A stretch of 64,000 nt of DNA from Demequinaceae bacterium (lineage in GTDB: Bacteria > Actinomycetota > Actinomycetes > Actinomycetales > Demequinaceae). The notes under the pieces are model-generated. The model made no database searches. It saw only the letters and a list, made by a program, of their open reading frames with translations, and was not told where the DNA came from. Each line of letters starts with the position of its first letter. The first letter of the stretch is position 1. The stretch covers positions 124,001-188,000 of the forward strand of contig JAFGBM010000004.1 of assembly GCA_016933155.1 (NCBI GenBank), in the 5' to 3' direction. Below, piece after piece: positions 7,348-23,489 of the stretch. Both the position numbers and the translations under genes were made by a program.

Positions 7348-7878
7348 ATGGCCGATTGGCGCAACACGATGGAGTGTCTCGTCCGCGACCGCGAGCGGGC
7401 CCTTCTTGGATATGCCTACCTGGTCTGCGGGGATTCGACTGAGGCGCAGGACCTCGTTCAGGACGCCCTCGTGAGGACATTCTCCAGGCCGCGTCCCGGG
7501 CTCACCGTTTTCAAGGCGGAGGCCTACGTGCGCCGCGCCATCACCTCCACCTACATCGACCAGTACCGCCGCCACCAGAGGTGGTCAAGGGTCCAGCACC
7601 TCTTCCGTCCGGGCGACGGGGGGGACGACGCGACGCTGGGTGTCGATATGAGTGCAGACGTGACGCTGGCGATCTCCTCGCTTCCACCGAGGGAGCGGGC
7701 ATGCATCCTGCTCCGCTTCTTCGACGACCTCACGGTGCCGCAGATCGGGCGCCAGTTGGGGATCGCCGAAGGAAGCGTGAAGCGCTACCTCTCCGATGGA
7801 ATCGAACGCCTGGAACGGAGCCTCGGCCCGCTCGAGGACACCGAAATCGAGACGACCCCCGTGGCCGGGTACCGCTAG
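7348..7878 (+). CDS. ECF sigma factor 1 (SigE-family, actinobacterial type)
   Basis: Alternative sigma factor of 176 residues. Region 2 contains GYAYLVCGD, then AQDLVQDALVRTFSR and AYVRRAI. Region 4 contains LPPRERACILLRFFDDLT and the helix-turn-helix IAEGSVKRYLSD. No extra C-terminal domain. ATG 7348 is preceded by GGAGAACAG. It is followed after 29 bp by membrane protein A1, its probable partner. First of five paralogous sets. Confidence 0.93.
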   Translation: MADWRNTMECLVRDRERALLGYAYLVCGDSTEAQDLVQDALVRTFSRPRPGLTVFKAEAYVRRAITSTYIDQYRRHQRWSRVQHLFRPGDGGDDATLGVDMSADVTLAISSLPPRERACILLRFFDDLTVPQIGRQLGIAEGSVKRYLSDGIERLERSLGPLEDTEIETTPVAGYR

Positions 7879-7907
7879 GCCCCGACCCGAATTGAAAGGA
7901 CAATGAC

Positions 7908-9662
7908 ATGACCAGGCTGTCGGATCTCCTCAGAGGTGCGGCCGATCGTGCCCCCATTGGCGAGGCGTCTGTATCGATCCAGACGGCGCACCGCAGGGTG
8001 CGCATCCAGCGCGGCGTCCGTGGTGCGGCCAATGGCCTCGCCGGTGCCGGTGCTGCCGCTCTTGTTTTCGTGGGCATCGTCAATCCCGCCATCACGGCGG
8101 CCACGGGCCAGGACGACGTTGCCCTTGCTCCCGTTCCCGCCGAGGATGACGGAGGCCGGACGCTGGGTGGGCCCGAGACGGATGCCTACTACAACGGCGG
8201 TTGGGGGGTGTGCGGCTCCTATGTCGACACCGCTCCCGTCGACCCCGACCCTTCCCTCTCCCTGACCGTCGATTCCGGCGATCTGGTCGACCTCGAGGGC
8301 GGTACCGTCCTCGACCTCCCGGCCAGACTCACCGCAACGGAGGATCTGACGATCACCTTCAGCCTTGAGGCCGTCATCCTCTATGAGGGAATGGTCGTCG
8401 CCCGGCTCGACGCTGCCGAGGCCGAGCAGATCCTCGCCCTCGCCAGCGGCGATACCGCCGACTCGTCCGTGTCCCTTCCCCTGGTGAACTGCTTCGACGG
8501 GGCTGCCCTGCCTGCGGCGAAGTACGAACTCGTCGTGAGCCAGGCATTCAGTCACACGACCGACGAGCCGGGCCCCGAGCCGACCATGGAGCCGACCCCC
8601 GTGCCCGAGCCGACCATGGAGCCGACCCCCGTGCCCGAGCCGGAGCCGTCTCCCTCCTCCATCGGGACGACGACCGACATGATGGCCCCCGAGCCGATGC
8701 CCGTCGAGCCGGAGATCTGGTGGGAAGCCCGCGCTACCGCCCCCTCCGTGACCCTGTCGATCGCCGGTGATCCCGTCGACGACCCGTTCGGCGACTACAT
8801 CTGGTCCCCGCCGGAGAAGCCGGACGACATCCTCACCCCGGCGAAGGCCCGGGAACTGTACGAGGCGGGACTCGTGTCGGGAACGTGGGACATGGCACCG
8901 GGCACCTCGCGGTGGATCATCCCGAACTACGAAGAGGTCTCGTCCCTTGACTCGATGAGGAAGACCTCCTCCGGCTGGTACGGATGCAGTTGGGACGGGT
9001 CGACCGGGGTCGGCTTCCCGACCGAATCCGCCGTCCTCGACCTCTTGGACGTCTCCATGACCTTCCCCTCCAGGATCAACCTTTCCTACGGATGGGTGGT
9101 CGACGGCAACCCCCAGGTGCACATCACGGTGACCAATACCTCCGAGTACTCGCTCCCCGGTTTCTACGGAGAGCCGAGCCGAACTCTCTACCTGGTCAAA
9201 GACGGGCGGGTGGTGGCCGAGTCGTGGCCGCAGAACATCCGGCCCTACTCCGACGACCTCGTCCGCGAACATATGGCGGCCGACTCCGACGAATACTGGG
9301 GCACCCTGTCCCCGGGGGCTGACATCACCGGCGACTACCTGTGGCGGGACCTCAACGGATGCTGGACGGAGAACGGACCCAGGTCGGTGACGTCCGGCAC
9401 CTACACGCTGGTCACCTCCCAGAGCATCTACATCGACAGCTCCAACGGGGAATACCCGGTCCTGTATGCGGAGGATGACGTGACCGAAGCGGGAGACGGC
9501 CAGTCGGAAGCGCCGGTACCGGCCGTCGATTCCGGGGCGCGGGAGGACACGATCGAGATCGACCCCGTCATTGCGCCCGACATCGAACCGGACTACCTGT
9601 ACGACTGGGTTGAACTTCAGATGTGGACCTCGCTCGGCACTGTGACCATCACCACAAGCTGA
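7908..9662 (+). CDS. Membrane protein A1 with large ectodomain, putative sigma-1 partner/anti-sigma
   Basis: A 584-residue single-pass protein. It has a short cytoplasmic tail rich in Arg (residues 1-38), a membrane segment at about 39-63 and an extracytoplasmic region of about 520 residues. The ectodomain holds two related Cys-bearing beta-rich units: WGVCG...VNCFDG..LPAAKYELVVSQ and WYGCS...LNGCWTEN..SGTYTLVTSQ. A Pro-Glu linker (about 222-250) made by an exact 30-bp tandem repeat separates them. There is no zinc anti-sigma HxxxCxxC motif in the tail. Ribosome site GAAAGGACAATGAC precedes ATG 7908. Position and topology, not homology I recognise, suggest an anti-sigma or sensor role. Confidence 0.8.
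   Translation: MTRLSDLLRGAADRAPIGEASVSIQTAHRRVRIQRGVRGAANGLAGAGAAALVFVGIVNPAITAATGQDDVALAPVPAEDDGGRTLGGPETDAYYNGGWGVCGSYVDTAPVDPDPSLSLTVDSGDLVDLEGGTVLDLPARLTATEDLTITFSLEAVILYEGMVVARLDAAEAEQILALASGDTADSSVSLPLVNCFDGAALPAAKYELVVSQAFSHTTDEPGPEPTMEPTPVPEPTMEPTPVPEPEPSPSSIGTTTDMMAPEPMPVEPEIWWEARATAPSVTLSIAGDPVDDPFGDYIWSPPEKPDDILTPAKARELYEAGLVSGTWDMAPGTSRWIIPNYEEVSSLDSMRKTSSGWYGCSWDGSTGVGFPTESAVLDLLDVSMTFPSRINLSYGWVVDGNPQVHITVTNTSEYSLPGFYGEPSRTLYLVKDGRVVAESWPQNIRPYSDDLVREHMAADSDEYWGTLSPGADITGDYLWRDLNGCWTENGPRSVTSGTYTLVTSQSIYIDSSNGEYPVLYAEDDVTEAGDGQSEAPVPAVDSGAREDTIEIDPVIAPDIEPDYLYDWVELQMWTSLGTVTITTS
8581..8640 (+). repeat. Two perfect 30-bp tandem repeats inside A1
   Basis: Positions 8581-8610 and 8611-8640 are identical. 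They encode two copies of a 10-residue Pro/Glu/Thr/Met unit in the linker between ectodomain halves. Linker length could vary by slippage or recombination. Confidence 0.9.
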
Positions 9663-9675
9663 GGGATTTCGGCTT

Positions 9676-9712
9676 CGGCCCCTTTCCTCCCATACTGGGA
9701 GGCGAGGGGCCG
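9676..9712 (+). terminator. Hairpin after A1, likely terminator
   Basis: Stem CGGCCCC (9676-9682) pairs with GGGGCCG (9706-9712), with an inner CTCCCA/TGGGAG stem. It begins 14 nt after the A1 stop codon. No strong T-run follows, so efficiency is uncertain. Confidence 0.55.
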
Positions 9713-9738
9713 CTGTCGCGGTTTCCCTGGGGCTCACC

Positions 9739-9760
9739 CGATGTGAGATTCCTCACATCG
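9739..9760. promoter_or_regulatory. Perfect 9-bp inverted repeat upstream of sigma-2
   Basis: CGATGTGAG (9739-9747), 4-bp spacer, CTCACATCG (9752-9760). It lies 13 bp upstream of the sigma-2 -35 element, a good place for an activator or repressor. It has no T-run, so it is unlikely to be a terminator. The other four sigma sets lack an obvious equivalent. Confidence 0.5.
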
Positions 9761-9773
9761 ATCGTCCGGCCCC

Positions 9774-9799
9774 AAGGTTTCGGTCGGCCCACTCGTATT
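9774..9799 (+). promoter_or_regulatory. ECF-type promoter of sigma-2
   Basis: AAGG (9774-9777), 16 bp, CGTATT (9794-9799). Compared with the promoter of A2b at 11463-11488, both read CCCCAA, one variable base, GTTT, and then CGTATT at the same distance. This strongly suggests recognition by the same sigma factor. Confidence 0.65.
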
Positions 9800-9849
9800 G
9801 GTCAATAGAAGCGGACGCGAGGGCGTCCTTGTTCTGTCTGGAGGATGTG

Positions 9850-10413
9850 ATGGCCAGTTGGGCCGAAACCCTTGAGGAACTGGTTCGAAAGCGTGGTGGC
9901 GCCCTGACGGCATATGGATACCTCCTCACCGGAAACTCCCGGGATGCGGAGGACCTGTTCCACGACGCCGTCGTGAAGACGTTCTCTCGCGGAAAGTCGG
10001 ATGTGACCATGGGTGAGGCGGAAGCATACGTCCGACGGGCGATGTTCACCTCCCACATGGATGCCGGCCGCAAGGAGCAGTCCTGGCGTCGGGTGTTCCA
10101 CCTCTTCAAGGGGGAGGAGTCCGGGTCCCACGGCGGGGCCGTCGAGTTCCGGACCGATCTTCAGGAGGCCCTGCGTCACCTGACCCCCCGGGAACGGGCT
10201 TGCACCGTTCTCCGCTTCTATGACGACCTCACGGCCGCCGCAATCGGCCAAGAGCTCGGTATTTCCGAAGGCGCCGTCAGACGTTACCTGTCCGACGCAG
10301 CGGTGAAGCTGCGCGGACACCTGGGGGCGCTGGAGGACAACCCCTCGCAGGGTGTCACCTATGGCACCGTGCAAGAAACCGCGACAACACGAGCAAGGAC
10401 ATGGCAACCATGA
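9850..10413 (+). CDS. ECF sigma factor 2 (SigE-family)
   Basis: A 187-residue ECF sigma factor. Region 2: AYGYLLTGNSRDAEDLFHDA and AYVRRAM. Region 4: LTPRERACTVLRFYDDLT with helix-turn-helix ISEGAVRRYLSD. ATG 9850 has GGAGG five bases upstream; a frame opening at 9829 has no ribosome site. The stop overlaps the start of A2 (ATGA), so the two are translationally coupled. It probably drives its own promoter and that of A2b. Confidence 0.92.
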   Translation: MASWAETLEELVRKRGGALTAYGYLLTGNSRDAEDLFHDAVVKTFSRGKSDVTMGEAEAYVRRAMFTSHMDAGRKEQSWRRVFHLFKGEESGSHGGAVEFRTDLQEALRHLTPRERACTVLRFYDDLTAAAIGQELGISEGAVRRYLSDAAVKLRGHLGALEDNPSQGVTYGTVQETATTRARTWQP

Positions 10414-11303
10414 ACATCAACGAGCAGATGAATCAGCTGGGGCAGATCGGGAGTTCCGGGTACGATCCCGCGGATTCCGTGGTCGACCAGCTTGTCGGTC
10501 GCGCCAAGCGTGCCCGGGCGATCCGTCAGGGCGCGGCTGGATTGATCGGATCCGTCGGTGCCATCGGCCTCGGCCTCCTCGGGGCCCAGGTCTTCGTCAA
10601 CCTCACCCAGGACAACGATCCGGCGACCATCGCCGACCGGGGCTTCGACTTCAACAGCATGGAGTGGGGCGACCGCTACGGCGACGACTACACCGGCCTG
10701 GGGAAGACCCAGGACGAACTCGCGCAGGCGTGGGAGGACCTCAAGGCCGCAGCGGCCGTCAAGACCGATGAGCCCGCCCCGGCCCCGGCCAAGACGGAGA
10801 AGCCTGCTGTCACGTGCGAGTACGAGACGAAGACCAAGGACGGCTGGATCTACTACCGGAGCACAGCCACCGGCTGTGAATGGGTGAAGAAGGAGAAGGT
10901 CGAGATCACCGTCCCCGCTGGTTCGATCGAGTTCGGCGGCATCATCGCGCCGTGCAAGAACTACTATGACGCTGCTACGGACTCAACCGTGTGGGCGGCC
11001 TTCATCGACGCCGGCGAGAGCTGGAAGAAGATCGTCAAGTGCGAGGGCGGCCCGACGGACTACTGGTCGGGCAGTTACCGCTACATCTACGGTGGGGGCG
11101 CCGGCGGCGGTTGGCACGCCACCCTCTCGGGCGCGACCTGCACCGGATTCGAGTGGGTCAATGACGGCAAGGTGTATCAGTACATCTGCAACCCGAACTA
11201 CGGCTCCTACGAGTTCCCGTGGAAGTACATCCGGGACGTCACTCCCACCCCGACGCCGACTGAGACTCCGGAGCCGGAGCCGGAGCCGGAGCCGACGATA
11301 TAG
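10410..11303 (+). CDS. Membrane protein A2 (sigma-2 partner, putative anti-sigma)
   Basis: A 297-residue single-pass protein starting at ATG 10410, nine bases after AAGGAC and overlapping the sigma-2 stop. Cytoplasmic tail 1-40 (MNINEQMNQLGQIG, then RAKRARAIRQ), membrane segment about 41-64, then a spacer and a Cys- and Tyr-rich ectodomain (CKNYYDA from residue 182, GATCTGFEW). It ends in a Pro/Thr/Glu tail. The first 125 residues are nearly identical to A2b, about 95% at DNA level by eye, while the ectodomains have diverged though still share Cys spacing. Confidence 0.82.
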   Translation: MNINEQMNQLGQIGSSGYDPADSVVDQLVGRAKRARAIRQGAAGLIGSVGAIGLGLLGAQVFVNLTQDNDPATIADRGFDFNSMEWGDRYGDDYTGLGKTQDELAQAWEDLKAAAAVKTDEPAPAPAKTEKPAVTCEYETKTKDGWIYYRSTATGCEWVKKEKVEITVPAGSIEFGGIIAPCKNYYDAATDSTVWAAFIDAGESWKKIVKCEGGPTDYWSGSYRYIYGGGAGGGWHATLSGATCTGFEWVNDGKVYQYICNPNYGSYEFPWKYIRDVTPTPTPTETPEPEPEPEPTI

Positions 11304-11324
11304 AGATGGATTAACGTAGGACTC

Positions 11325-11365
11325 CTGGGCGTGGCGCGGTTCCCTCAGCCCGTGCCACGCCCGGG
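11325..11365 (+). other. Hairpin downstream of A2 (copy A of a duplicated element)
   Basis: Stem GGGCGTGGC (11327-11335) pairs with GCCACGCCC (11354-11362), with loop CCCTCAGCC. A second copy lies at 12602-12643 after A2b, with compensatory base changes in the stem. It may be a terminator part or a 3' UTR RNA element. Confidence 0.6.
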
Positions 11366-11383
11366 CCCTTCATAGGGGAAGGG

Positions 11384-11422
11384 AACAACAGGCGGGTCAC
11401 CTAAGGTGGCTCGCCTGTTGTT
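11384..11422 (+). terminator. Long stem-loop between A2 and A2b
   Basis: An 18-bp stem (11384-11401 with 11405-11422, two G-T type mismatches) closes a TAA triloop. The right arm ends TTGTT. It is a probable intrinsic terminator separating A2 from the A2b promoter. Confidence 0.65.
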
Positions 11423-11462
11423 CGCCTTGAGGGACGAACCACGGCTCGGGGAATCGCACCCC

Positions 11463-11488
11463 AATGTTTCTCCTGCCCCATCCGTATT
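11463..11488 (+). promoter_or_regulatory. ECF-type promoter of A2b
   Basis: AATG (11463-11466), 16 bp, CGTATT (11483-11488). It shares CCCCAA-n-GTTT and CGTATT with the sigma-2 promoter. It gives A2b its own sigma-2-type control. Confidence 0.65.
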
Positions 11489-11538
11489 AAGTGGTGGGGA
11501 ACGATGCTGAGGCGTCCCGTACGAAAGGACAAAGCACC

Positions 11539-12585
11539 GTGAACATGAATGAGCAGATGAATCAGCTGGGGCAGATAGGAAGCGTCGGCTACACGCCCAA
11601 AGATGCCGTGGTCGACCAACTCGTCGATCGCGCCAAGCGTGCCCGGGCGATCCGTCAGGGCGCGGCCGGATTGATCGGATCCGTCGGCGCCATCGGCCTC
11701 GGCCTCCTCGGGGCCCAGGTCTTCGTCAACCTCACACAGGACAACGATCCCGCGACCATCGCCGACCGGGGCTTCGACTTCAACAGCATGGAGTGGGGCG
11801 ACCGCTACGGCGACGACTACACCGGCCAGGGGTTGACCCAGGAGGAAGCCGCGCAGGCGTGGAAGGACCTCAAGGCCGCTGCGGCCGTCAAGACCGAGGA
11901 ACCCGCCCCCGTCAAGACCGAGGAACCGGCACCGGTCAAGCCGACCAAGCCGGCGTCCGAGATCCCCGATGGCTACTTCCTCTTCGGGAACGGCCAGGTG
12001 TACAAGTGTGAGCAATGGACCGACGCCACCACCGGAACAGTCTTCTGGGGCGCGTACAGCGGAACCGGCGACTGGGCCTACAAGATGATCCAGTGCAACC
12101 CCAACGACAAGTACGAGTACAGCTACAAGTACATGGGTAGTGCCGCGCCGTTCAACACCGCGACCCGCACGTGCACCGGGGCCACCGTCAATTACCTCGG
12201 GGCTCCGCACCGGATCTCCTGCCTGACCAACAGCGTTCTCTGGAACAAGTATCCGGAATGGAACGGGTCCAACGGCGGGAACACCGTATGGTCCCTGAAC
12301 AACGATGAAGGGAAGATCCTGGTCTCCCCCTCGACGTACAAATGGTTCGTGAGCGGGACATGCGCCTCGACCCTCTACTCGAACTCCACTCCGCTGTTCG
12401 GCTTCCCTGCGTGCCACCAGGCCGCATGCGACGGGTGGTACTACACCACGGATCAGCACCCGGAGAGGGATGGAAACCGGTACTCGTGGAGCGGATCGGC
12501 TTGGGTGATCGACAACCCGACCCCGACCCCGACCGAGACGACGCCTCCTCCGGAGCCGGAACCGTCTGTGACGCCTTCGGAGTAG
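11539..12585 (+). CDS. Membrane protein A2b, paralog of A2 with a different ectodomain
   Basis: A 348-residue paralog of A2. The GTG at 11539 lies nine bases after AAAGGAC and gives VNMNEQMNQLGQIG, aligned exactly with the A2 start; an earlier GTG at 11491 has no ribosome site. Tail, membrane segment and spacer are almost the same as in A2. The ectodomain keeps A2-like Cys landmarks (CEQWTDATTG, MIQCNPN, TRTCTG) and then adds a further region with CASTLYS and CHQAACDGWYY. A Pro/Thr/Glu tail ends the protein. No sigma gene of its own precedes it, so sigma-2 probably serves two membrane partners. Confidence 0.8.
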   Translation: MNMNEQMNQLGQIGSVGYTPKDAVVDQLVDRAKRARAIRQGAAGLIGSVGAIGLGLLGAQVFVNLTQDNDPATIADRGFDFNSMEWGDRYGDDYTGQGLTQEEAAQAWKDLKAAAAVKTEEPAPVKTEEPAPVKPTKPASEIPDGYFLFGNGQVYKCEQWTDATTGTVFWGAYSGTGDWAYKMIQCNPNDKYEYSYKYMGSAAPFNTATRTCTGATVNYLGAPHRISCLTNSVLWNKYPEWNGSNGGNTVWSLNNDEGKILVSPSTYKWFVSGTCASTLYSNSTPLFGFPACHQAACDGWYYTTDQHPERDGNRYSWSGSAWVIDNPTPTPTETTPPPEPEPSVTPSE

Positions 12586-12601
12586 TATCGGATTGCAGAC
12601 T

Positions 12602-12643
12602 CCCGGGTGTGGTACGGATCCCTCAGCCTGTGCCACACCCGGG
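12602..12643 (+). other. Hairpin downstream of A2b (copy B of duplicated element)
   Basis: Stem CCCGGGTGTGG (12602-12612) pairs with CCACACCCGGG (12633-12643). Relative to copy A, a C-G pair is replaced by T-A, with both arms changed. The loop again contains CCCTCAGCC. Confidence 0.6.
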
Positions 12644-12656
12644 CCTTCGGGACAAG

Positions 12657-12686
12657 CGGGCCGCCATCGGCGGCCCGTTCTGTTTT
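12657..12686 (+). terminator. Rho-independent terminator after A2b
   Basis: Perfect stem CGGGCCGCC (12657-12665) with GGCGGCCCG (12669-12677), followed by TTCTGTTTT. It separates A2b from the convergent tad operon. Confidence 0.85.
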
Positions 12687-12699
12687 CCGGACAAGGGTC

Positions 12700-13059
12700 T
12701 CAACCTGTCCCCGCACGCGCCGACCTGCTGATCTGGATTCCCGCGGTCCGGGTTTCCACCCTGACCGTTGCGATTCCATCGGCCTCGATCGAGCATTCCG
12801 TGAGGATGCCTCCCCATTCCTCCGCCACGGCCGCCGCTTGGTTGCACGGGTCCTCAGCCATCGGCTGTCCCAACGCGCGAAGGTCCCGCGCCTCCGACGC
12901 GGCGGCCAACGCGCAGGCGTCCGCCGCCCCCTGGGCTCGGGAGCCGGCGACCGCAACAGCCCCCACCGCGCCGAGCGCGACGACCAGGGTCGCAACCACC
13001 GCCACCACCCCCATGAAGACGAGCGAGGTCAAGCCCCGATCCCGCCTAATCCTGGACAC
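12700..13059 (-). CDS. TadE-like secreted/pilus-locus protein (Rv3654c-like)
   Basis: A 119-residue protein with one N-terminal hydrophobic segment (about 11-40) after a basic tip. The Ala-rich region GAADACALAAASEARD is typical of the last gene of actinobacterial tad loci. A GTG at 13059 overlaps the end of the TadE gene by 14 bp. Last gene of the tad operon; probably a pseudopilin-like assembly factor. Confidence 0.75.
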   Translation of the reverse strand: MSRIRRDRGLTSLVFMGVVAVVATLVVALGAVGAVAVAGSRAQGAADACALAAASEARDLRALGQPMAEDPCNQAAAVAEEWGGILTECSIEADGIATVRVETRTAGIQISRSARAGTG

Positions 13060-13369
13060 GCGTCACGGCCGTCGCCCGTGCCTCGAGGCCCCACGGCCCG
13101 CGATCGGCGACGGTCACCCGGATCCACTCCCCATCCCGGAGGATGTCGATCCTGGCGTCGGCGCCGACGATGGCGAGCGCCACGTCGGAAGCGTTCGAAT
13201 CCGTGTCCACGATCGCGATCCTCGCCACCGCGCTTGCGGCTTCCTGGGCCTTCACCATCGCGACACCGTGACACACCGCCGCTCCCAAGAGTCCCAGGAG
13301 CATCGCGACGGCCGGAAGCACCATGGCGAACTCCACCGTCGCCGATCCCCGATCGCTCCCTCGCCGCAC
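13046..13369 (-). CDS. TadE-family pseudopilin
   Basis: A 107-residue protein with the class signature GSATVEFAMVLP: a Glu at +5 after a GS processing site, then a hydrophobic helix. ATG 13369 is one base after the upstream stop, with GGGGCAG as ribosome site. It is probably processed by a prepilin peptidase and forms part of the pilus; no peptidase gene lies in the window. Confidence 0.82.
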   Translation of the reverse strand: MRRGSDRGSATVEFAMVLPAVAMLLGLLGAAVCHGVAMVKAQEAASAVARIAIVDTDSNASDVALAIVGADARIDILRDGEWIRVTVADRGPWGLEARATAVTRVQD

Positions 13370-13370
13370 G

Positions 13371-13538
13371 TTACTGCCCCAGCGCCGACCCGATGAGCCC
13401 CACGAGCCAATCCCTGACCTCGGGGGACTTGAGGATGGCCACCAGCAGCCCGGCGAATCCCGCCGCGGCCAGCGTGACGAGCGCGTACTCCGTCGTCGCC
13501 GATCCGTGATCCTTCCTCAGCCTTCTCACCCGATCCAT
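13371..13538 (-). CDS. Small Flp-like pilin, DUF4244 family
   Basis: A 55-residue peptide: MDRVRRLRKDHGSATTEYAL, then LAAAGFAGLLVAILKSPEVR. The G-SATTEYAL processing site and single hydrophobic helix fit DUF4244/Flp-type pilins, and the position between the T2SSF protein and TadE matches mycobacterial loci. A strong ribosome site (GAGGGGAGG) lies six bases before ATG 13538. Probable major pilus subunit. Confidence 0.85.
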   Translation of the reverse strand: MDRVRRLRKDHGSATTEYALVTLAAAGFAGLLVAILKSPEVRDWLVGLIGSALGQ

Positions 13539-13566
13539 GCAAGCCTCCCCTCGATATCCACGGTCG

Positions 13567-14493
13567 TCACCATCCCATGCCGATTCCCGTCACCAAGGCG
13601 ACGACGAGCGGCATGACCCCCAGGACGATGAAGGCCGGAAGCAGGCAGAGGGACAGGGGCAACGTCGCGCGCACCCCCAGGCGGGCGGCTTCGCGTTCCG
13701 CGGCCTCCCGACCCCCCTCGACGATCGCGTCCTGTGCAGCCCGGAGCATGGCCGCAGGCGACGCCCCTCGAAACCAGGAAGACCTCAGGGCTCGGTCGAG
13801 CGCGGCGAACCCGGCCCCCTCCCATGCTTCGGACCATGCGGCACCCGCCGCCAATGACTCAGAGACGCCGACCAGGCCTGCGCCCCCCGGCCCGAGGGCA
13901 TGCCCGACGTCGGCCAGCGCCGAGCGGACGTCCAGTCCAGACACCACGGCAGCCTCCACCAAGACCAGGGGAAGGACCACCTGGGTGGCATCGCTGCCCG
14001 CGGCTTCCGCGCACGCAACCATGCGCCGGAGCCAGGCACTCCCGACCCACCACATCCCCCCTCCCATGACGAGGAGGAGCCACCCGAGCGGAGTCGCGAC
14101 GAGGACCGTCGCCGCGCCCGGGTCCAGAATCAACGCGAAGAACCATCCGACAGCGGGGAGCCACAGCAACACCCTCGCGCTCGCTCGCGGCCCTGCCAGA
14201 GCCACCTCCCTTGCAGCCGCTGCCCTTCTCCTGCCCCTCTCCGCCTCCTCGATCCTCTCCAGGATGTCCGCCAACGGAGCCCCCGATCGGTGGGCGAGCC
14301 TCCCCGCCGCGCGAAGCGCCGTCGCCTCGTCTAGATCGATGCCCCCCACCTCGGGGGCCCCGTCTCCGTCGACCCCGACCCCGAACGCTTCCCACCAGGC
14401 CGCCTCGGGCGTCGCCCCCGACCGCAATAGGCCGATCGCCTCGGCCGTCATCAAACCGCCAGTCTCGATCCCGCTACTCGCTATCCCGCTCAT
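13567..14493 (-). CDS. TadB-TadC fusion, pilus assembly membrane platform (T2SSF)
   Basis: A 308-residue inner-membrane protein. Both halves resemble type II secretion F domains: a cytoplasmic helical part (about 20-95), two membrane helices (about 105-150), a second helical part (about 160-270) and two C-terminal helices. Mycobacteria carry separate tadB and tadC genes at this place; here they look fused and shortened. Its ATG overlaps the tadA stop (ATGA). Confidence 0.82.
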   Translation of the reverse strand: MSGIASSGIETGGLMTAEAIGLLRSGATPEAAWWEAFGVGVDGDGAPEVGGIDLDEATALRAAGRLAHRSGAPLADILERIEEAERGRRRAAAAREVALAGPRASARVLLWLPAVGWFFALILDPGAATVLVATPLGWLLLVMGGGMWWVGSAWLRRMVACAEAAGSDATQVVLPLVLVEAAVVSGLDVRSALADVGHALGPGGAGLVGVSESLAAGAAWSEAWEGAGFAALDRALRSSWFRGASPAAMLRAAQDAIVEGGREAAEREAARLGVRATLPLSLCLLPAFIVLGVMPLVVALVTGIGMGW

Positions 14494-15551: not shown

Positions 15552-15596
15552 GGGGCCAGCCTCACCCCAGAGCGAAGGAACGCCACGAAATCCCCG

Positions 15597-15695: not shown

Positions 15696-16493
15696 ATGGG
15701 AGATCAGAGCCGCACGGCGGCCTTCTTCGATCTCGACAAGACGATCATCGCGACGTCCTCGGCGATCGCGTTCTCCCACGAGCTCCACGTCGAGGGACTC
15801 CTCACCCGCGTCGACACCCTCCGGACCGCCTACGCCCAGTTCCTGTTCACGATCGGAGGCGCCGACGCCCGGCAGACCGCGCGATTGAGGGACGCCATTG
15901 CGGAGACCATCACGGGCTGGGAGGCGGCCAAGGTCCAGAGGATCGTCGAGGAAACCGTCGACCAGTTGATCGACCCCGTCGTCTACGAGGAGGCTCTCCG
16001 CCTCATCCAACGGCATAAAGCGAACGGCCGGGACGTCATCATCGTGAGTGCCTCCGGGGCGGAGATCGTCCGGCCGATCGCCCGCCTCCTCGGAGCCACC
16101 TCCTTCATCGCCTCCGAGATGGAGGTGGTCGACGGAAAGTACACAGGCCAGATCGGCTTCTACGCCTTTGGACCCCAGAAGGCGAAGGCAATCCGCCGCC
16201 TCGCCGAGGAGAAAGGGTACGACCTGAGGCGCTGCTACGCGTACTCGGACTCCATCACCGACGCCCCCATGCTCAACGCGGTCGGATTCGGCTATGCCGT
16301 CAATCCCGACCGGGCGATGAAGCGGGCGGCGACGGAGAGGGGCTGGGGCATCCTCGAGTTCGAGAAGCCCGTCGTCCTCCGCAAGGCCTCCAACCGCCGC
16401 CTTGCCGTCATCGCCGGGATATCCATCGCCGTCATCGGCCTCGCATGGATCTCGATGTCCCGGCGTCGGTCACGCGGACGATGGGGTGCCTAG
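15696..16493 (+). CDS. HAD-IB phosphatase with C-terminal membrane anchor
   Basis: A 265-residue HAD-superfamily hydrolase of the SerB-like IB group. Motif I is DLDKT (Asp12, Asp14), motif II VSASG, and motif III region YAYSDSITDAPML. A C-terminal hydrophobic helix (about 237-256) is followed by an Arg-rich end. This gene flanks tad loci in mycobacteria (Rv3661-like). AGGGAGG precedes ATG 15696. Substrate unknown. Confidence 0.88.
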   Translation: MGDQSRTAAFFDLDKTIIATSSAIAFSHELHVEGLLTRVDTLRTAYAQFLFTIGGADARQTARLRDAIAETITGWEAAKVQRIVEETVDQLIDPVVYEEALRLIQRHKANGRDVIIVSASGAEIVRPIARLLGATSFIASEMEVVDGKYTGQIGFYAFGPQKAKAIRRLAEEKGYDLRRCYAYSDSITDAPMLNAVGFGYAVNPDRAMKRAATERGWGILEFEKPVVLRKASNRRLAVIAGISIAVIGLAWISMSRRRSRGRWGA

Positions 16494-16526: not shown

Positions 16527-16532
16527 AGGTGC

Positions 16533-17402
16533 ATGAGTCGCGCTCCCCTGATCGGCCTCGTCGCACTGGGGATCGCCGTTCTCGTCGGAGCCTCAGCGAC
16601 CCCGGAGCCGTCACCCTCGACCTTCCCGGACGCCGTCCGGGTGATGTTCCTCGGGGACTCCATCACGGGCGGCCCCGGCTGCTGGCGAGCCGAGGTGTGG
16701 CGAAACCTGAGCGACGACGGGTACTCGGTCGACATGGTCGGCCCCTTCACCCGGGACGACTGCGGCGGAGTGGCCGACGCCGAGGGCCGGGTGTGGGACC
16801 CGGACAACGCGGGATACGGCGGCATCACGACGTACGGGGTGACGGCCAAGGTCGCCAACCGGGACCTGCTGACGAACCACCCACCGGACGTCATCGTCAT
16901 GCTGCTCGGCACCAACGACGTCCGGGCGGGGAGCACCACGCAGGAAGTGCTCGACCAGTACACCTTCCTCCTGGGACTCTTCCGCGACTACGTGCCCGAT
17001 GTCACGGTGGTGATCGGGACCCTCCCCCCAATCGGCCCGAGCGACTGCACCGACTGCCAGGCCATCCTCGACGAGCTCAACCCCCTCATCCCCGGGTGGG
17101 CGGAGTCGGCCTCGACACCCGATTCCCCCGTCACCGTGGCCGTCATCCACACCGACCTCGATGTCACGACGGACACGGTCGACGACCTTCACCCGAACGC
17201 GAGCGGAAACGCGAAAATCGCCGCGGCGTTCCTACCCGTCATCGAGGCCGCGCTGGACGATGTGAAGGCCCGACAAGACTCGTCGCCGCTCGTGGAAATG
17301 CTGGCTGGGCTAGGAGCGGTCCTTGTCGTCACCGGGGTGTTCCTCTACTGGCGCTTTCGCCGTGTGAGCACCTCCGGCGCCCAGCCGACCAAGGCTTCCT
17401 GA
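16533..17402 (+). CDS. Exported SGNH/GDSL hydrolase with C-terminal membrane anchor
   Basis: A 289-residue serine esterase-fold protein. The N-terminal hydrophobic segment (4-21) is a signal sequence. Block I GDSIT has Ser43, block III GTND is at 126-129, and block V DDLHP gives Asp218 and His220. A C-terminal membrane helix (about 260-281) ends in RFRR. It probably acts on an ester in the cell envelope; the substrate is not evident. Confidence 0.88.
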   Translation: MSRAPLIGLVALGIAVLVGASATPEPSPSTFPDAVRVMFLGDSITGGPGCWRAEVWRNLSDDGYSVDMVGPFTRDDCGGVADAEGRVWDPDNAGYGGITTYGVTAKVANRDLLTNHPPDVIVMLLGTNDVRAGSTTQEVLDQYTFLLGLFRDYVPDVTVVIGTLPPIGPSDCTDCQAILDELNPLIPGWAESASTPDSPVTVAVIHTDLDVTTDTVDDLHPNASGNAKIAAAFLPVIEAALDDVKARQDSSPLVEMLAGLGAVLVVTGVFLYWRFRRVSTSGAQPTKAS

Positions 17403-17432
17403 CCTCCGCCTCCCACCTCACTGGCCCGCTAC

Positions 17433-17458
17433 AACCCTTGGGACTTGCCGGACGTATA
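17433..17458 (+). promoter_or_regulatory. ECF-type promoter of sigma-3
   Basis: AACC (17433-17436), 16 bp, CGTATA (17453-17458), 33 bp before the sigma-3 start. Confidence 0.6.
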
Positions 17459-17491
17459 GCGGGGTGAAGGCGACACCGGAAGGATGGCGAC

Positions 17492-18049
17492 ATGGGGCGA
17501 TGGAGCGAACACCTCGGACCGCTCATGGAGACGCGCTACCCCGCCCTCCTCGCGTACGCGAACGCCCTGACCGCGGGCGACCGGGCCCAAGCCGAGGACG
17601 TGGTGCAGGACGCCATCGTCCGCTCCTTCTCGCGGGGCCGGGGATTTGAGACCGTCGCCCACTCCGAGGCCTACACCCGGCGTGCGATCCTCTCCGTCTT
17701 CCTCGACAAGACCCGCTCCCGGTCTCGGCTGCTTCGGGCCTTCTCCCGCCTAGCCGAAGCCGACGCCACGCCCTCGCACGACGACACCGTCGACACCTCG
17801 GAATCCGTCCGGACCCTGCTCCGGCACCTCAGCCCCCGCGAGCGCGCCTGCGTCGTCCTTCGGTACTACGACGACCTGACGATCGCCCAGGTGGCCGACG
17901 CCCTGGGACTCGCGTCCGGGACCGTCAAACGGTATCTCTCCAACGCGACCTCCCACCTCGGTGCCCATCTTGGCCTCCCCGACGACCCGGACTCCTCGGA
18001 GTCCGTCGCCGTGTCTTCCCCTCGAGTCCCCTCACGAAAGGAGCGGTGA
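17492..18049 (+). CDS. ECF sigma factor 3 (SigE-family)
   Basis: A 185-residue ECF sigma factor. Region 2: AYANALTAGDRAQAEDVVQDA and AYTRRAI. Region 4: LSPRERACVVLRYYDDLT with helix-turn-helix LASGTVKRYLSN. ATG 17492 is preceded by GGAAGGATGGCGAC. One base separates its TGA stop from the A3 ATG, implying coupled translation. Confidence 0.92.
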   Translation: MGRWSEHLGPLMETRYPALLAYANALTAGDRAQAEDVVQDAIVRSFSRGRGFETVAHSEAYTRRAILSVFLDKTRSRSRLLRAFSRLAEADATPSHDDTVDTSESVRTLLRHLSPRERACVVLRYYDDLTIAQVADALGLASGTVKRYLSNATSHLGAHLGLPDDPDSSESVAVSSPRVPSRKER

Positions 18050-18050
18050 C

Positions 18051-19148
18051 ATGAATCCCATCTCCGACGCCCTCCACGACCTAATGTCCTCCGACGAGGC
18101 CGCCTTCCGGGCCGCCCACAGCGGGCGCGGCCTCGACCTCGAACCCCGAGCCCGTCGGGCCCGTCGCGTCCGCGCGGCCACCCGGGCCGGGCTCGTCGTG
18201 GCCTCCGCCGCCGTCCTCGCCATCTCGGCCTTCTCCGTCTCGGCTGCCCTCCGCGGCGACTCGACCGACACGGACCCCATCGCGCCCCCGGTCCCCGAGG
18301 GCTACGAGCGGGTCGTCATTCCTCTCCCCGACGAAGATGGATGGGTGCAAGGGTTCTCAAAAAGCACAGATCCGGTGTTTGAGGCAGCTGGACTCTACGG
18401 TGCAATCTGCAACGAGCCCCTTCCTGACCTAGCAGACGCCGGACCCTTTCACCTCGAGGTCATCTCCACAAGCCCTGGCTATACAGGACAGAGGCCAGTT
18501 GAAGGCGAGTGGATTCCGACGGACGTCATGGCGGAAGCAACGCTCACCTATAACGGGAGTTCCAGCGGTGTTGTAGCGACCGATCAAAGTGCCTGGATTC
18601 TTTTACGCAGCGACGGGACAATCGCCCAGAGCACAGGGGGTGTCATCTCCAGCGAACCAATGGTGGAGACCAACCACTCACTTCGAGAGGCCTTTTCCAC
18701 CGAAATCGAAGGATGGCTTCCCTTGATCGACTGTGCTGCGCCCCCCCTAAGCGAAGTGTCCCCAGAAGGATACCCACCTGAAGTCCTGCTCGATGCTGGT
18801 TCCTACTCCATAATCAGCATCGCAAAGGTGGAATGGAGCGCTGCGGGCGCGACTGTGCTCGACGCCAACCAGTTGGGGTACGACCCGTCCTGGTTCGGCG
18901 AGGACTGGAGAGACGCGGTCCCCTGCCGCGACGCCGTTGCCGAGGCCAAACTCACCCAGAACGGCAACGCCATCGAATGCTTGCCCCACCTGTACTACCA
19001 GCAGTTCTTCGATTTCCCCTCTGGCAGCCAATACGCCATCGTCGACGTTCCCCTGGGATTCCTCGACGGCCCCAGGAAGACCTGGTACGTCGTCTCCGAC
19101 CCATACCCCTTCGAACTCCCTCTGGAAGGCGAGCCGCCGACAACCTGA
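18051..19148 (+). CDS. Membrane protein A3 (sigma-3 partner, putative anti-sigma)
   Basis: A 365-residue single-pass protein: cytoplasmic tail 1-45 with RARRARRVRAATR, membrane segment about 46-67, ectodomain of about 300 residues. The ectodomain shows the landmarks seen in A1 and A5: a first Cys (YGAICNEP), a second (LIDCAAPP), then LLDAGSYSI. Further Cys occur in VPCRDA and IECLPHL. DNA from about 18350 to 18830 is visibly less GC-rich than both flanks, suggesting that the ectodomain was exchanged. No known domain recognised. Confidence 0.78.
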   Translation: MNPISDALHDLMSSDEAAFRAAHSGRGLDLEPRARRARRVRAATRAGLVVASAAVLAISAFSVSAALRGDSTDTDPIAPPVPEGYERVVIPLPDEDGWVQGFSKSTDPVFEAAGLYGAICNEPLPDLADAGPFHLEVISTSPGYTGQRPVEGEWIPTDVMAEATLTYNGSSSGVVATDQSAWILLRSDGTIAQSTGGVISSEPMVETNHSLREAFSTEIEGWLPLIDCAAPPLSEVSPEGYPPEVLLDAGSYSIISIAKVEWSAAGATVLDANQLGYDPSWFGEDWRDAVPCRDAVAEAKLTQNGNAIECLPHLYYQQFFDFPSGSQYAIVDVPLGFLDGPRKTWYVVSDPYPFELPLEGEPPTT

Positions 19149-19176
19149 CTCCATGCCAGGCCAGAGGTGGGACCCC

Positions 19177-19203
19177 AACCTTTTCCGGGTGTGGTTCCGT
19201 TAT
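19177..19203 (+). promoter_or_regulatory. ECF-type promoter of sigma-4
   Basis: AACC (19177-19180), 17 bp, CGTTAT (19198-19203), preceded by CCC. The spacer is one base longer than in the other sets. Confidence 0.55.
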
Positions 19204-19241
19204 GGGGGCATGATGGTACCGGACTCGGAGGGATCGTGACG

Positions 19242-19778
19242 ATGGTCGAGGATCTCGTGCGAACGCGCTATGGCGCGCTCGTCGGGTTCGCCACGATGCT
19301 GACCGGGAACGCCGTGGAAGCCGAGGACGTGGTGCAGGATGCCCTGGTCGTCGTCTTCGGAAAGCGGGTATCGTTCCCCACCCTGGGACGCGCGGAGTCG
19401 TACGTCCGTCGAACGATCGCCTCCCGCTTCGTCGATGCCCGTCGCGGCCGTCAGCGCCAACGCCAGAGGGAGATCCGAGCGGATCGCGAGGCTTTCTCCT
19501 ATCCGCACACCACCGATGCGCAGGTCGTCAGCCGCCTCGACATCGAGACGGCGCTCGCCGACCTCGCCCCCCGGGTCCGCGCCTGCATCGTGCTCCGCTA
19601 CCTCGCCGATCAATCCATCGCCGATACCGCCCATGCCCTTGGGCTGAGTATGGGTGCGGTCAAGCGCTACGTATCCGACGGGATCGCCGCCCTCAACCTG
19701 GCCCTCGGAACCTTCGAGCCGACCGAGGTCACGGACGGCGAGCGCGCCGAGATCGTCTCCCAGGGAGGTGCTCGATGA
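19242..19778 (+). CDS. ECF sigma factor 4 (SigE-family)
   Basis: A 178-residue ECF sigma factor. Region 2: GFATMLTGNAVEAEDVVQDAL and SYVRRTI. Region 4: LAPRVRACIVLRYLADQS with helix-turn-helix LSMGAVKRYVSD. This departs most from the shared PRERAC and DDLT motifs. ATG 19242 is ten bases after GGAGG; a GTG at 19236 is too close. The end overlaps A4 by ATGA. Confidence 0.9.
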   Translation: MVEDLVRTRYGALVGFATMLTGNAVEAEDVVQDALVVVFGKRVSFPTLGRAESYVRRTIASRFVDARRGRQRQRQREIRADREAFSYPHTTDAQVVSRLDIETALADLAPRVRACIVLRYLADQSIADTAHALGLSMGAVKRYVSDGIAALNLALGTFEPTEVTDGERAEIVSQGGAR

Positions 19779-21322
19779 GCGAGCTCCAGGATCGACTTCG
19801 GGAAGCCGAGGCACGCGCCTCGGCCCACCGTGACTCTGCCACCCTCGAGACCATCGGGGCATCGGTCTCGCGTCGGGCGCGTCGTCGTCGAGTCGTCCGA
19901 AGCGGCGGAACCATCATCGCTGCGGCGGTGGGCATCGGTCTCGTCGGATCGGTGGGCTGGTCGGTCGTCACCCACAATGACCCCATCGCACCAAAGCCGA
20001 GCCCGTCACCCTCCGCGTCGGAGTCGCCCTCGCCGACGCCGGGCCCCGAACCCTCTCCCGTGACCGTCCCCGACGTGCCATACGAGGTCGTCGACGGGGT
20101 GACGGTCTCCCAGTACCTGCCAGAGGCCGAGGCGATCACCCCCGAGGTGTGGGACGAGGCGACCTCCGGTTGGACCCTCGCGGCCTTCGAAGGTGGGCTG
20201 ATGGATCCCTCGCGCCGGCAAAATTGGGGCGGGACCGACATCCTCGGGTACACCTACGGACCCGACATCGCGGTTCCCGGGCCCAGGGTCCTGTACCTCG
20301 TCTCACCTGACGGCCGAACCTACGAAGTGGCCAACCTGACGGATATGGGCGTCGGGGACGTGCTCGCCTGGGATGCCCAGCGCGAGGTCGCCCTCGTGAC
20401 GGATCGATACTCCGGGTACGGCCAAACCTCAAGCCGGATCTTCGCGACCCTCGACCTGAGAAGCGGGGTACTCGGACCATGGTTCGGGGTGGGCGGGGAC
20501 GGGGGCAGCGATTTCGACGTGCGGAGCGATAACGACGGAGTCTGGCCCATCGACGGGGGGTGGGCATTCGTCGGAACGACCTGGGACACCGAGTACAACC
20601 CGACCATCGTCCGGACGATCGTCGACGACTCCGGCCACCCCGTCCCGGGCGCGGCCGTGCTCGATCCGGAGTCGACCTTCACGGCGCTGGTCGGCGAGTA
20701 CCTCGTCGAATACCCGTCGGAATGGCCGCTCCCAGATGCCGCTCCGACCCTGCACGTACGAGACGACTTCGGTCGAGGACCCCTCCTCGAGTACCCCATG
20801 CCGATCGATCCCCACGGTGAGTCATCCAACAACTGCAGGGTCTACCGACTCGCTGCGCCGGAAGCGGTCGTCGTGGAGTGCGGGGCGTCCGAAGGGGAGG
20901 ACGGGCAGGGAACGATGCGGTCCACCGTCGCCGTGTTCGACCCCGAGCAGGGCTCGTTCGAGACGATCGTCGATTGGGACGGGAACACCCTCCTGGGGTA
21001 CGACTCCCAGGACATCCTCCGATGCGTCCGAGGCGACACCGTCTACGGTTTGTATCAACCCGGTCAGACCGATTGGGTGATGGGAGGACTGCGCGTTCGG
21101 AGCGCCGATCGCTACGAGGTCCTCTCCCCGCCGCCGGGGGTGTACATGGCGATCCAGTGCGAGGGTGCCGCCGGGGACGATTTCGTGGTCCGAGGCTCGG
21201 GGCCACTCCTCGCCCTCGACCCCGTGAACGAGACCTGGGGGACGCTCCTTCCCGCCAATGGCGGGACGTCTGATCGGCTCGTTGCCGGAGTCACCGACCT
21301 AGGGATGTTCGTCGCGCCGTAG
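19775..21322 (+). CDS. Membrane protein A4 (sigma-4 partner) with propeller-like ectodomain
   Basis: A 515-residue single-pass protein: cytoplasmic tail 1-43 (VSRRARRRRVVR), membrane segment about 44-65, a Pro/Ser-rich stalk (about 70-95) and a large ectodomain. Repeated beta-strand stretches (RVLYLVSPDGRTYEV, EVALVTDRYSG, RIFATLDLRSGVLG) resemble a beta-propeller or quinoprotein-like fold, unlike the Cys units of A1, A3 and A5. The start overlaps the sigma-4 stop. Anti-sigma or sensor function is inferred from position and topology. Confidence 0.78.
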   Translation: MSELQDRLREAEARASAHRDSATLETIGASVSRRARRRRVVRSGGTIIAAAVGIGLVGSVGWSVVTHNDPIAPKPSPSPSASESPSPTPGPEPSPVTVPDVPYEVVDGVTVSQYLPEAEAITPEVWDEATSGWTLAAFEGGLMDPSRRQNWGGTDILGYTYGPDIAVPGPRVLYLVSPDGRTYEVANLTDMGVGDVLAWDAQREVALVTDRYSGYGQTSSRIFATLDLRSGVLGPWFGVGGDGGSDFDVRSDNDGVWPIDGGWAFVGTTWDTEYNPTIVRTIVDDSGHPVPGAAVLDPESTFTALVGEYLVEYPSEWPLPDAAPTLHVRDDFGRGPLLEYPMPIDPHGESSNNCRVYRLAAPEAVVVECGASEGEDGQGTMRSTVAVFDPEQGSFETIVDWDGNTLLGYDSQDILRCVRGDTVYGLYQPGQTDWVMGGLRVRSADRYEVLSPPPGVYMAIQCEGAAGDDFVVRGSGPLLALDPVNETWGTLLPANGGTSDRLVAGVTDLGMFVAP

Positions 21323-21339
21323 CATCACCACCCACCCCC

Positions 21340-21365
21340 AACGTTCGCCCCCACCCACCCGTTCA
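21340..21365 (+). promoter_or_regulatory. ECF-type promoter of sigma-5
   Basis: AACG (21340-21343), 16 bp, CGTTCA (21360-21365), preceded by CCCCC. It lies only 17 bp after the A4 stop. Confidence 0.6.
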
Positions 21366-21400
21366 AGCCGGTGACAGGGCACACTGGACCCGGAGGCGAC

Positions 21401-21934
21401 ATGGGTGCGTGGAGGGGCTTGCTGGCGGAGGTCGTCAGGACCCGCCACGCCTCCCTCCTCGCGTACGGGTACCTCTTGACCTCGAGCCGAGCGGACGCCG
21501 AGGACCTCGTCCAAGATGCGCTCGTCAAGGTCTTCTCCCGCGTCCGCACCCTGCCAAACGCCGCCGCCGCCGATCAATACGTCCGGAGGGCCATGCTCAC
21601 CCTCTACCTCGACCGTCGGCGCCGCGACCATGCGTGGAACCTGGTGAAGCGAATCGTCACAACGGACGACGGCGTGGCTGGGCCGGAGGACTCCGTCACG
21701 GCGTCCACGGACGTCCGGGCCTCCCTGGCCGCCCTCAGCCCCAGGGAGCGGGCCTGCGTCGTCCTCCGCCACTTCGACGACCTCTCGGTGCGGGAGATCG
21801 CCGGGCGGCTAGGGCTCGCCGAGGGAAGCGTCAAGCGGTACCTCAGCGACGGGCTGAAGCGCCTCGGCGTCGAGATGACCGATGACGGGGCCACGGTTAC
21901 CGTGGTCGCCCACGGCCGCGAAGGGAGGAACTGA
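21401..21934 (+). CDS. ECF sigma factor 5 (SigE-family)
   Basis: A 177-residue ECF sigma factor. Region 2: LAYGYLLTSSRADAEDLVQDAL and YVRRAM. Region 4: LSPRERACVVLRHFDDLS with helix-turn-helix LAEGSVKRYLSD. ATG 21401 follows CGGAGGCGAC. One base separates it from A5. Confidence 0.92.
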   Translation: MGAWRGLLAEVVRTRHASLLAYGYLLTSSRADAEDLVQDALVKVFSRVRTLPNAAAADQYVRRAMLTLYLDRRRRDHAWNLVKRIVTTDDGVAGPEDSVTASTDVRASLAALSPRERACVVLRHFDDLSVREIAGRLGLAEGSVKRYLSDGLKRLGVEMTDDGATVTVVAHGREGRN

Positions 21935-21935
21935 C

Positions 21936-23489
21936 ATGGGATCCATCGATCGCGACCTTCAGGGGATCTACGACTCCGAACGGGACGCCACCCGAACCCC
22001 GGCCGGGCTCGTCGACGTAGTGGCCAGGAGGGCTGGCCGACGCCGGGGCTCGGCCATCGCTGGGACTGCAGCTGCAGGGCTGGCCGTGGTCGGGCTCGTC
22101 GCATCCCTCGGGGTAGCCGTCGCCCGAAACTCCGAACCCGTCACCACCCCTGATCAGCCAATCGAGGTGAATATGTACGTTGGCCCCACGCAGGGGTGGC
22201 AGAACGAGGGAGCGATGGATCTGGTGGAGTTCTGTGGGGAGGCCGCCCCACAGACGAAGCCGATCTCCGAGTACTTCACCCTCTCGTCGAACGTTGAGAG
22301 CCTGGCCGACGATCTCTCAACCGACGTGACGTTCCATGTTGACACATTCGCTGGGACGAGCGAAATCACGGGGACCGAACGATCGGGTGTCCTCCAAATC
22401 ACGTCACGCATCGACGGGGCTGGCGGCCTGATGCAGGGCTGGCTCTTCGTTCAAGACGGAATCGTCGTCGGGTACGTCGACAACGTCACCCCCGGCACAG
22501 ACCCCCTCACGGGCGTGAGGACCTGGGAGGACGGGGGGTCGACGTTACTCACGGCCAACACCAGCGTCGCGGTCTCGTGCGAGGCGGGCGAGATGGCCGA
22601 TGACCCCTTCTGGCTGGTCGGCGACGCCTATGTGTACGGCCCGAGCCCGGCCTCGATCCTTCCCGCCGGGGACTACGAGGCCTACCCGGTCGTGCGGATC
22701 GAAGCCTCCGACAAGACCGACGCCCGTCGGACGCTCGCCGCCAGCGGCATCTCGACGAGCCTGGTCGGACCCGGACGCCTCGCCGAACCCGGCAGTTGGG
22801 ATTGCCAACAGGCCACCGAGGCCGCCGGCCTGACCCCCATCGACTGCGTCGAAGGGCTCTACGACCAGGCCTGGGCCATCGCGACGGTCACCGTCCCACC
22901 CGAATTCCAGAGCCCCGACATCGATGTCACCCTCGTCGGGGTGCCCCTCCCCTACTCCCGGACGGGCGAGGCCGTCGTCGAAGAGCCCGAAAGCCAGTGG
23001 ACCACAGAACACACCTACGGTATGTGCTCCCACGGACTAGTCGATGGCTTCTGGCAGACCGATGGCCTTCCCCCGAGTCTCGTGTCCCCGCAGGGCTTCG
23101 CCGTCCTCGACCCGCTCCTCGCCAACTCAAGCCTGACAACTAGTGCGGGAATCCTGGACGATCCGCAGGACGACGGGACGCTTGAGGGAATCGTCGACTT
23201 CGAAGTGCTCCTCGCCACAGACCTGGACGACTCCCCCCGGTTCACCTTCGCGGGCTCCGCCCGAGCGACCATCAACGACGGCGGCCCGATCATCCTCGAC
23301 CGTTACTCTGGCCCGACGACCGTCACCCTCACCCTGAGCGATGTCACCTGGTGCGGTGATCCACCCCCGGAGGGAACCGTACTGTCGGCGGCTATCACGG
23401 GCTCCGCGGTCTTTGCCCCAACCGGCGGAGACCCAAGCGAAGTCGCGGTCGTCCTATGGATCGCCCCAAACGGGCTCCCCTGGGACTAG
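21936..23489 (+). CDS. Membrane protein A5 (sigma-5 partner, putative anti-sigma)
   Basis: A 517-residue single-pass protein: cytoplasmic tail 1-38 (VARRAGRRRG), membrane segment about 39-63, ectodomain of about 450 residues. It has the Cys-unit landmarks found in A1 and A3 (LVEFCGEA, FVQDGIVVGYV, VSCEAGE, ILPAGDYEAYPVV) and a second Cys region (YGMCSHG, VTWCGDPP). Codon use in the first ectodomain part (about 22140-22420) is looser than in the tail region. Convergent with the acyltransferase gene, 4 bp apart. Confidence 0.78.
   Translation: MGSIDRDLQGIYDSERDATRTPAGLVDVVARRAGRRRGSAIAGTAAAGLAVVGLVASLGVAVARNSEPVTTPDQPIEVNMYVGPTQGWQNEGAMDLVEFCGEAAPQTKPISEYFTLSSNVESLADDLSTDVTFHVDTFAGTSEITGTERSGVLQITSRIDGAGGLMQGWLFVQDGIVVGYVDNVTPGTDPLTGVRTWEDGGSTLLTANTSVAVSCEAGEMADDPFWLVGDAYVYGPSPASILPAGDYEAYPVVRIEASDKTDARRTLAASGISTSLVGPGRLAEPGSWDCQQATEAAGLTPIDCVEGLYDQAWAIATVTVPPEFQSPDIDVTLVGVPLPYSRTGEAVVEEPESQWTTEHTYGMCSHGLVDGFWQTDGLPPSLVSPQGFAVLDPLLANSSLTTSAGILDDPQDDGTLEGIVDFEVLLATDLDDSPRFTFAGSARATINDGGPIILDRYSGPTTVTLTLSDVTWCGDPPPEGTVLSAAITGSAVFAPTGGDPSEVAVVLWIAPNGLPWD

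Follow-up and report, generated by a model that had tools for sequence, protein, structure and literature searches.

ECF sigma factor genes paired with putative membrane sensor genes in a Demequinaceae genome, with a possible one-sigma/two-receptor circuit

We analyzed a 64,000-nucleotide stretch (hereafter the window) of a Demequinaceae genome (assembly GCA_016933155.1, contig JAFGBM010000004.1, positions 124,001 to 188,000; part of contig C3 in a genome, G000, of 1.885 Mb and 15 contigs) and found five paralogous genes for extracytoplasmic function (ECF) sigma factors, s1 to s5, all on the plus strand and each followed by the gene of one single-pass membrane partner, p1 to p5. As a whole, these pairs are best and quite probably explained as autoregulated ECF sigma factors with a membrane sensor, likely a short anti-sigma factor without zinc, that control surface proteins. 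The pairing, its translational coupling, a tail motif, promoters, candidate targets and a mosaic of two partner genes (p2 and p2b) all have computational support. The system appears to be a variant of the known sigma factor/membrane anti-sigma kind; the feature of greatest interest is a possible circuit of one sigma factor and two receptors. The best-studied SigE-like ECF sigma factor, that of Streptomyces coelicolor, works without an anti-sigma factor; the approximately 170 pairs found here share a short arginine-rich membrane tail, mostly together with a promoter of their own type, and a large uncharacterized class of sensors is thereby open to simple tests.

In pairs 1 to 5, the gaps from sigma gene to partner gene are 29, −4, 1, −4 and 1 bp, and the partners have 584, 297, 365, 515 and 517 residues. 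Hence, the first-pass annotation of this DNA, which had described five plus-strand paralogs with close single-pass partners, was right on these points. Pair 1 consists of s1 (7348..7878) and p1 (7908..9662), and pair 2 of s2 (9850..10413, likely start ATG 9850) and p2 (10410..11303, ATGA overlap). Pair 3 consists of s3 (17492..18049) and p3 (18051..19148, likely start ATG 18051), pair 4 of s4 (19242..19778, likely start ATG 19242) and p4 (19775..21322), and pair 5 of s5 (21401..21934, likely start ATG 21401) and p5 (21936..23489, likely start ATG 21936). The array of five in that annotation is a real cluster but not a contiguous one, as Tad, HAD and SGNH genes part pairs 1 and 2 from pairs 3 to 5. 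It had also missed an orphan partner-like membrane protein of 348 residues, p2b (11539..12585, plus strand; GTG start by homology to p2, with ATG 11545 possible), and a sixth pair that lies approximately 2 kb upstream of the window on the opposite strand beside topA (sigma gene C3:121332-121892, partner with ATGA overlap). Four further pairs on contigs C12, C1, C6 and C11 bring the genome to ten. Since five of these ten sigma genes sit here and arrays recur in Demequina, the clustering is not due to chance.

The best family model for all five window sigma factors was TIGR02983 (SigE family), with scores of 102 to 122 bits against a cut-off of 141.55; hence, they are relatives of the SigE family rather than members. 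All five exceeded the cut-off of TIGR02937 (ECF superfamily), and the three that were scanned with Pfam had both Sigma70_r2 and Sigma70_r4_2 above cut-off. On these matches, all five are predicted to be ECF sigma factors with sigma70 regions 2 and 4.

The partners in the window begin with arginine-rich tails of approximately 40 to 45 residues followed by a single helix, the common layout that had been described for them. As had also been noted, the tails, only approximately 43 residues long, contain no zinc anti-sigma domain (ZAS, zf-HC2) and no His/Cys zinc motif. We found the same design in 172 nonredundant pairs from Demequinaceae and other Actinomycetes, left after removal of duplicates: the transmembrane segment starts at a median of residue 44 (5-95% range, 37-53), and the tail has Leu-x3-Leu in its first helix, then hydrophobic positions and an arginine cluster, with one arginine, R35 in p1, present in 168 of the 172 (98%). 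In size, these tails match class II anti-sigma factors, which have at most approximately 50 residues ahead of one transmembrane helix. Two tail helices (residues 4-13 and 24-47) were predicted with low confidence.

Family scans gave no meaningful Pfam or NCBIfam match for the window partners and no carbohydrate-binding module in Pfam; a carbohydrate-sensing role for the ectodomains was considered as a possibility and has no Pfam support. The first ectodomain of p1 (model residues ~111-290) is Ig-like. The matches in a structure search were those of a generic Ig-like sandwich (best Z approximately 11; TRAP and Wzt domains figured along with many others), and we drew no function from them. The partner of pair 1 stops after this first ectodomain, at approximately 308 residues, in Demequina aurantiaca and D. 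oxidasica (L087:6564-7493 and L089:6558-7481). Separately, an almost tail-less membrane protein at L011:4144-5439 (minus strand) resembles by eye the partner ectodomain of the adjacent sigma operon and could be a decoy or co-receptor.

When relatives were searched, as had been proposed, the pairs proved to be kept together. With the ten sigma factors as queries, every Demequinaceae genome yielded 3 to 15 relatives, whereas most genomes from outside the family gave fewer or none; among named genomes (Demequina, Cellulomonas, Agromyces, Oerskovia, Promicromonospora, Jiangella and others), the nearest loci were those of Demequina species. A partner reading frame lies directly downstream of all but one of 91 sigma genes in the fetched regions, the exception being at a contig end, and in named genomes a partner with the helix at the expected position accompanies 92 of 103 sigma genes. 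Among the 172 pairs, the commonest gap is −4 (ATGA overlap; 106 pairs) and the median partner length is 453 residues. Arrays of five pairs within approximately 12 kb recur at four Demequina loci (L044, L045, L046 and L047), where some of the sigma factors are low-scoring and divergent. A possible reversed pair, with a partner-like gene ahead of the sigma gene and a 4-bp overlap, was seen in Phytoactinopolyspora (L085:8072-9906, plus strand).

Within genomes, sigma distances correlated with ectodomain distances (rho 0.28; shuffle null 0.13 ± 0.04) and with tail distances (0.15; shuffle null 0.00 ± 0.06). Hence, the pairs have for the most part moved and diverged as units. Related sigma factors go with related ectodomains, as for p4, whose ectodomain is related to that of the contig C12 pair. 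We therefore rejected the general swapping of ectodomains that the first-pass annotation had put forward; swapping holds at the p2/p2b duplication, which that annotation had not seen. Among eleven pair-1 orthologs, identity is 70% for the sigma factor, 58% for the tail and approximately 38% for the ectodomain.

Alignment of the regions upstream of pair-1 orthologs revealed a conserved site of the type CCCAACG-N-TT-N13-CGTC, present before pair 1 as CCAACGGTT-N13-CGTCAC (7279..7306, plus strand, as are the sites that follow). Similar ECF-type sites precede s2 (CCCAAGGTTT-N13-CGTATT, 9771..9799), p2b (CCCAATGTTT-N13-CGTATT, 11460..11488), pair 3 (ACAACCCTTGG-N11-CGTATA, 17431..17458), pair 4 (CAAC-N18-CGT, 19174..19203) and pair 5 (CCCAACGTTC-N13-CGTTCA, 21337..21365). 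CAA(C/G/T)-N17-CGT was found before nine of the 11 units of this genome (ten sigma operons and p2b), the exceptions being s4, with spacing N18, and the C12 operon, with N15 or N18. Before the 172 sigma genes, CAAC-N17-CGT occurs 114 times, and the other spacings from 11 to 23 give 0 to 18 (N16, 1; N18, 12). In the −35 flank, the sequence after CAA tracks sigma distance more closely (rho 0.31) than does the spacer (0.19), which suggests promoters that are partly specific to their sigma factors.

The promoter also supplies candidate targets, found by pattern searches with the reversed pattern as control. In this genome, CCCAAC-N17-CGTH gave 34 sites relative to 7 for the control, and the intergenic ones precede sigma operons and lipoprotein genes, several directly. 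A stricter pair-1 pattern found the pair-1 promoter in 13 related genomes with zero control matches and, in five, also lies ahead of lipoprotein genes, among them two serpin genes and one for a DUF4349-type protein. In each of the 15 Demequinaceae genomes with the DUF4349 lipoprotein gene, a promoter site lies upstream of it, against a background of 3.2% per 500-bp strand window that is itself inflated by the choice of loci; the spacing-17 site was not found before this gene in two genomes of other families. Serpin lipoprotein genes have the site 39 to 69 bp upstream in five Demequinaceae genomes and a variant near the called start in a sixth (G012), and there is no such site at the serpin gene of the one genome outside the family. 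The serpin lipoprotein gene of this genome, under an ECF-type promoter, lies at G000:C3:205196-206577 (L155).

From these features we infer tail-sigma binding, its inhibitory sign, proteolytic release, ligands and the assignment of sigma factors to targets. At rest, the tail of approximately 43 residues, a leucine-rich helix and then an arginine-rich helix that runs into the membrane, would hold the sigma factor at the membrane. A signal at the ectodomain would lead, probably through stepwise proteolysis ending with a site-2 protease, to release of the sigma factor; a gene for such a protease is present in the genome, and site-2 protease genes are nearly universal. The freed sigma factor would then transcribe its own operon from the CAAC-N17-CGT promoter as well as surface lipoprotein genes (those of the DUF4349 lipoprotein, the serpin lipoprotein and others). 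In this reading, whole pairs duplicate and then diverge together, and at pair 2 only the receptor gene has duplicated. Retention of pairs in relatives, translational coupling, the shared tail motif and the ECF-type autoregulatory promoter give good support, in outline, to the earlier suggestion of a repertoire of surface-signal switches.

At pair 2, the first 386 bp of p2b are 91% identical to p2. The two proteins share 97% of residues 26-60 and 95% of residues 61-100 but only 26-43% beyond residue 131, and four-fold sites are identical at 37 of 42 positions over residues 26-100 vs 10 of 29 over residues 131-297. The ectodomain of the ortholog in a genome of the same genus (G001) is 46% identical to that of p2b vs 23% to that of p2. 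Hence, the conserved unit is the tail, the membrane helix and the juxtamembrane stretch, and the ectodomain beside the sigma gene is the more diverged one. The sigma-2 promoter pattern occurs in the genome without mismatch only before s2 and p2b, and the s2 version recurs with little change ahead of the s2 orthologs in G001 and in a Demequina genome (G024). Since p2b keeps the tail, the membrane segment and a sigma-2-type promoter, it probably feeds sigma-2 through a second ectodomain.

That p2 and p2b are two receptors with a shared tail and different ectodomains for one sigma factor, with p2b in the sigma-2 regulon, is a tentative proposal to which we give slightly less than even odds. If it is true, activation builds the second receptor, and a one-sigma/two-sensor circuit has arisen by ectodomain replacement behind a conserved tail. 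Rather unlikely, though worth weighing, is that p2b, instead of working as a second receptor, is a duplicate in decay or a silent cassette whose recombination with p2 varies the surface: high silent-site identity is confined to the 5' part, as a recent gene conversion would leave it, p2b has no sigma gene of its own, and the single ortholog in G001 has the p2b-type ectodomain. However, the 348-residue frame of p2b is intact and has its own sigma-2-type promoter, with a 19-bp hairpin, likely a terminator, between p2 and p2b (11383..11423, plus strand). Moreover, p2b is the only clear orphan among approximately 200 tail-bearing proteins (other candidates had a low-scoring sigma gene nearby, lay at a contig edge or were left without a closer look), so no reservoir of cassettes is seen. 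As a natural experiment, the mosaic bears on which receptor segment addresses the sigma factor. An inverted repeat, GATGTGAG-ATTC-CTCACATC (9740-9759), stands just upstream of the s2 promoter and is a possible operator; a similar TGTGAGATATCTCACA lies ahead of the s2 ortholog in G024 (L019).

Among known systems, CnrY of Cupriavidus metallidurans, a class II anti-sigma factor, wraps sigma4 and sigma2 of CnrH with two tail helices (PMC7406223). The pairs here are alike in combining an ECF sigma factor with the very short tail of a single-pass membrane regulator and fit by tail size; unlike CnrY, each partner here carries its own large ectodomain, and the partners belong to Actinomycetes and show, in searches with a very short profile, no detectable sequence or profile similarity to it. 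For CnrY, sensing falls to a distinct periplasmic protein, CnrX. Clostridium thermocellum has multiple SigI/RsgI pairs with different ectodomains and regulated intramembrane proteolysis (PMC12203970). The first-pass annotation had drawn this comparison, and it holds for the manner of working, with several sigma/membrane-protein pairs and differing ectodomains, but not for the families, as the sigma factors here are SigE-like ECF rather than SigI-type and family scans found no RsgI N-terminal domain in the partners. The closest sigma family is that of SigE/CseABC of S. coelicolor (ECF39, TIGR02983), whose targets include CAAC-N17-CGTC type promoters, such as that of sco4468 (CAAC-N17-CGTCTG), and whose regulon is rich in envelope proteins and lipoproteins (PMC6767563). 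That SigE has no anti-sigma factor and does not target its own promoter (PMC6767563). Here, in contrast, nearly every sigma factor has a membrane partner and most have a promoter of their own type.

Several results weigh against an anti-sigma role of the partners. The namesake of the family, S. coelicolor SigE, is not under anti-sigma control (PMC6767563). Searches of the tails against known anti-sigma structures and Pfam families found no match, and PDB profile matches up to E 10 contained no anti-sigma chain, CnrY included, with a very short query profile. NCBIfam matches were weak, with the CU044_5270 family (NF038083) found for 16 of 47 tails (best E 0.0014; whole window partners far under the cut-off) and a generic anti-sigma model for 4 of 47. 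We used AlphaFold2 on a sigma factor fused to its partner tail by stop read-through, for the naturally in-frame pair L122 from a Homoserinimonas metagenome-assembled genome, and obtained a confident sigma factor and first tail helix, a poor remainder, a predicted template modeling score of 0.46 and no interface. Covariation between sigma and tail residues was not clearly above a clade-preserving null, and the distance correlations could stem from co-inheritance of neighboring genes alone. Two other AlphaFold2 alignments were dropped, one enriched with tail rows, which misplaced tails onto the sigma factor, and one with whole partner rows, in which identities looked no better.

The absence of a predicted interface and of clear covariation, together with the control of S. 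coelicolor SigE and the surface lipoproteins among the targets of this promoter class, would suit partners that are ordinary surface proteins under the control of a sigma factor they never contact, its activity being set transcriptionally as for SigE/CseBC. We consider this improbable, as the tail motif with its conserved arginine persists over unrelated ectodomains, most pairs are coupled by ATGA, and p2b, despite its diverged ectodomain, conserves tail and membrane segment down to silent sites; in addition, most sigma genes carry a promoter of their own family type and would run away without an inhibitor. The sign of the regulation is a separate matter. The tails gave no match to a known anti-sigma fold, and RskA is reported as a dual activator-inhibitor of SigK (PMC7509140), so that the partner might, instead of inhibiting, be a co-activator or a scaffold at the membrane on which the activity or stability of the sigma factor depends, with the signal recruiting or stabilizing the sigma factor. 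To this we give little credence, because a short cytoplasmic N-terminus, one helix and an ectodomain, encoded downstream in the operon, is the layout of a membrane anti-sigma factor, and an inhibitor would be expected for a sigma operon that activates itself. The autoregulated sigma factor with a likely anti-sigma sensor is thus the reading we retain.

The genes between pairs 2 and 3 begin with a Tad-type pilus cluster on the minus strand (12700-15570), in which a tadB/C-like gene (13567-14493) and a tadA-like ATPase gene (14490 to about 15570), along with two small TadE-like genes, were named by eye from the sequence. A plus-strand gene for a HAD phosphatase (15696-16493) and a gene for an SGNH-like hydrolase (16533-17402) follow. 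In the Demequinaceae genomes examined, s1 orthologs keep their position, with pair 1 flanked by topA/nrdG-like genes on one side and by the tad-HAD block on the other. Synteny in Demequina includes tadC and HAD. Pair 2 adjoins pair 1 in G001 and G024, and G002 retains pair 2 next to a p1 fragment. The slot after HAD, which holds pairs 3 to 5 here, is filled by other, non-orthologous pairs in several Demequina.

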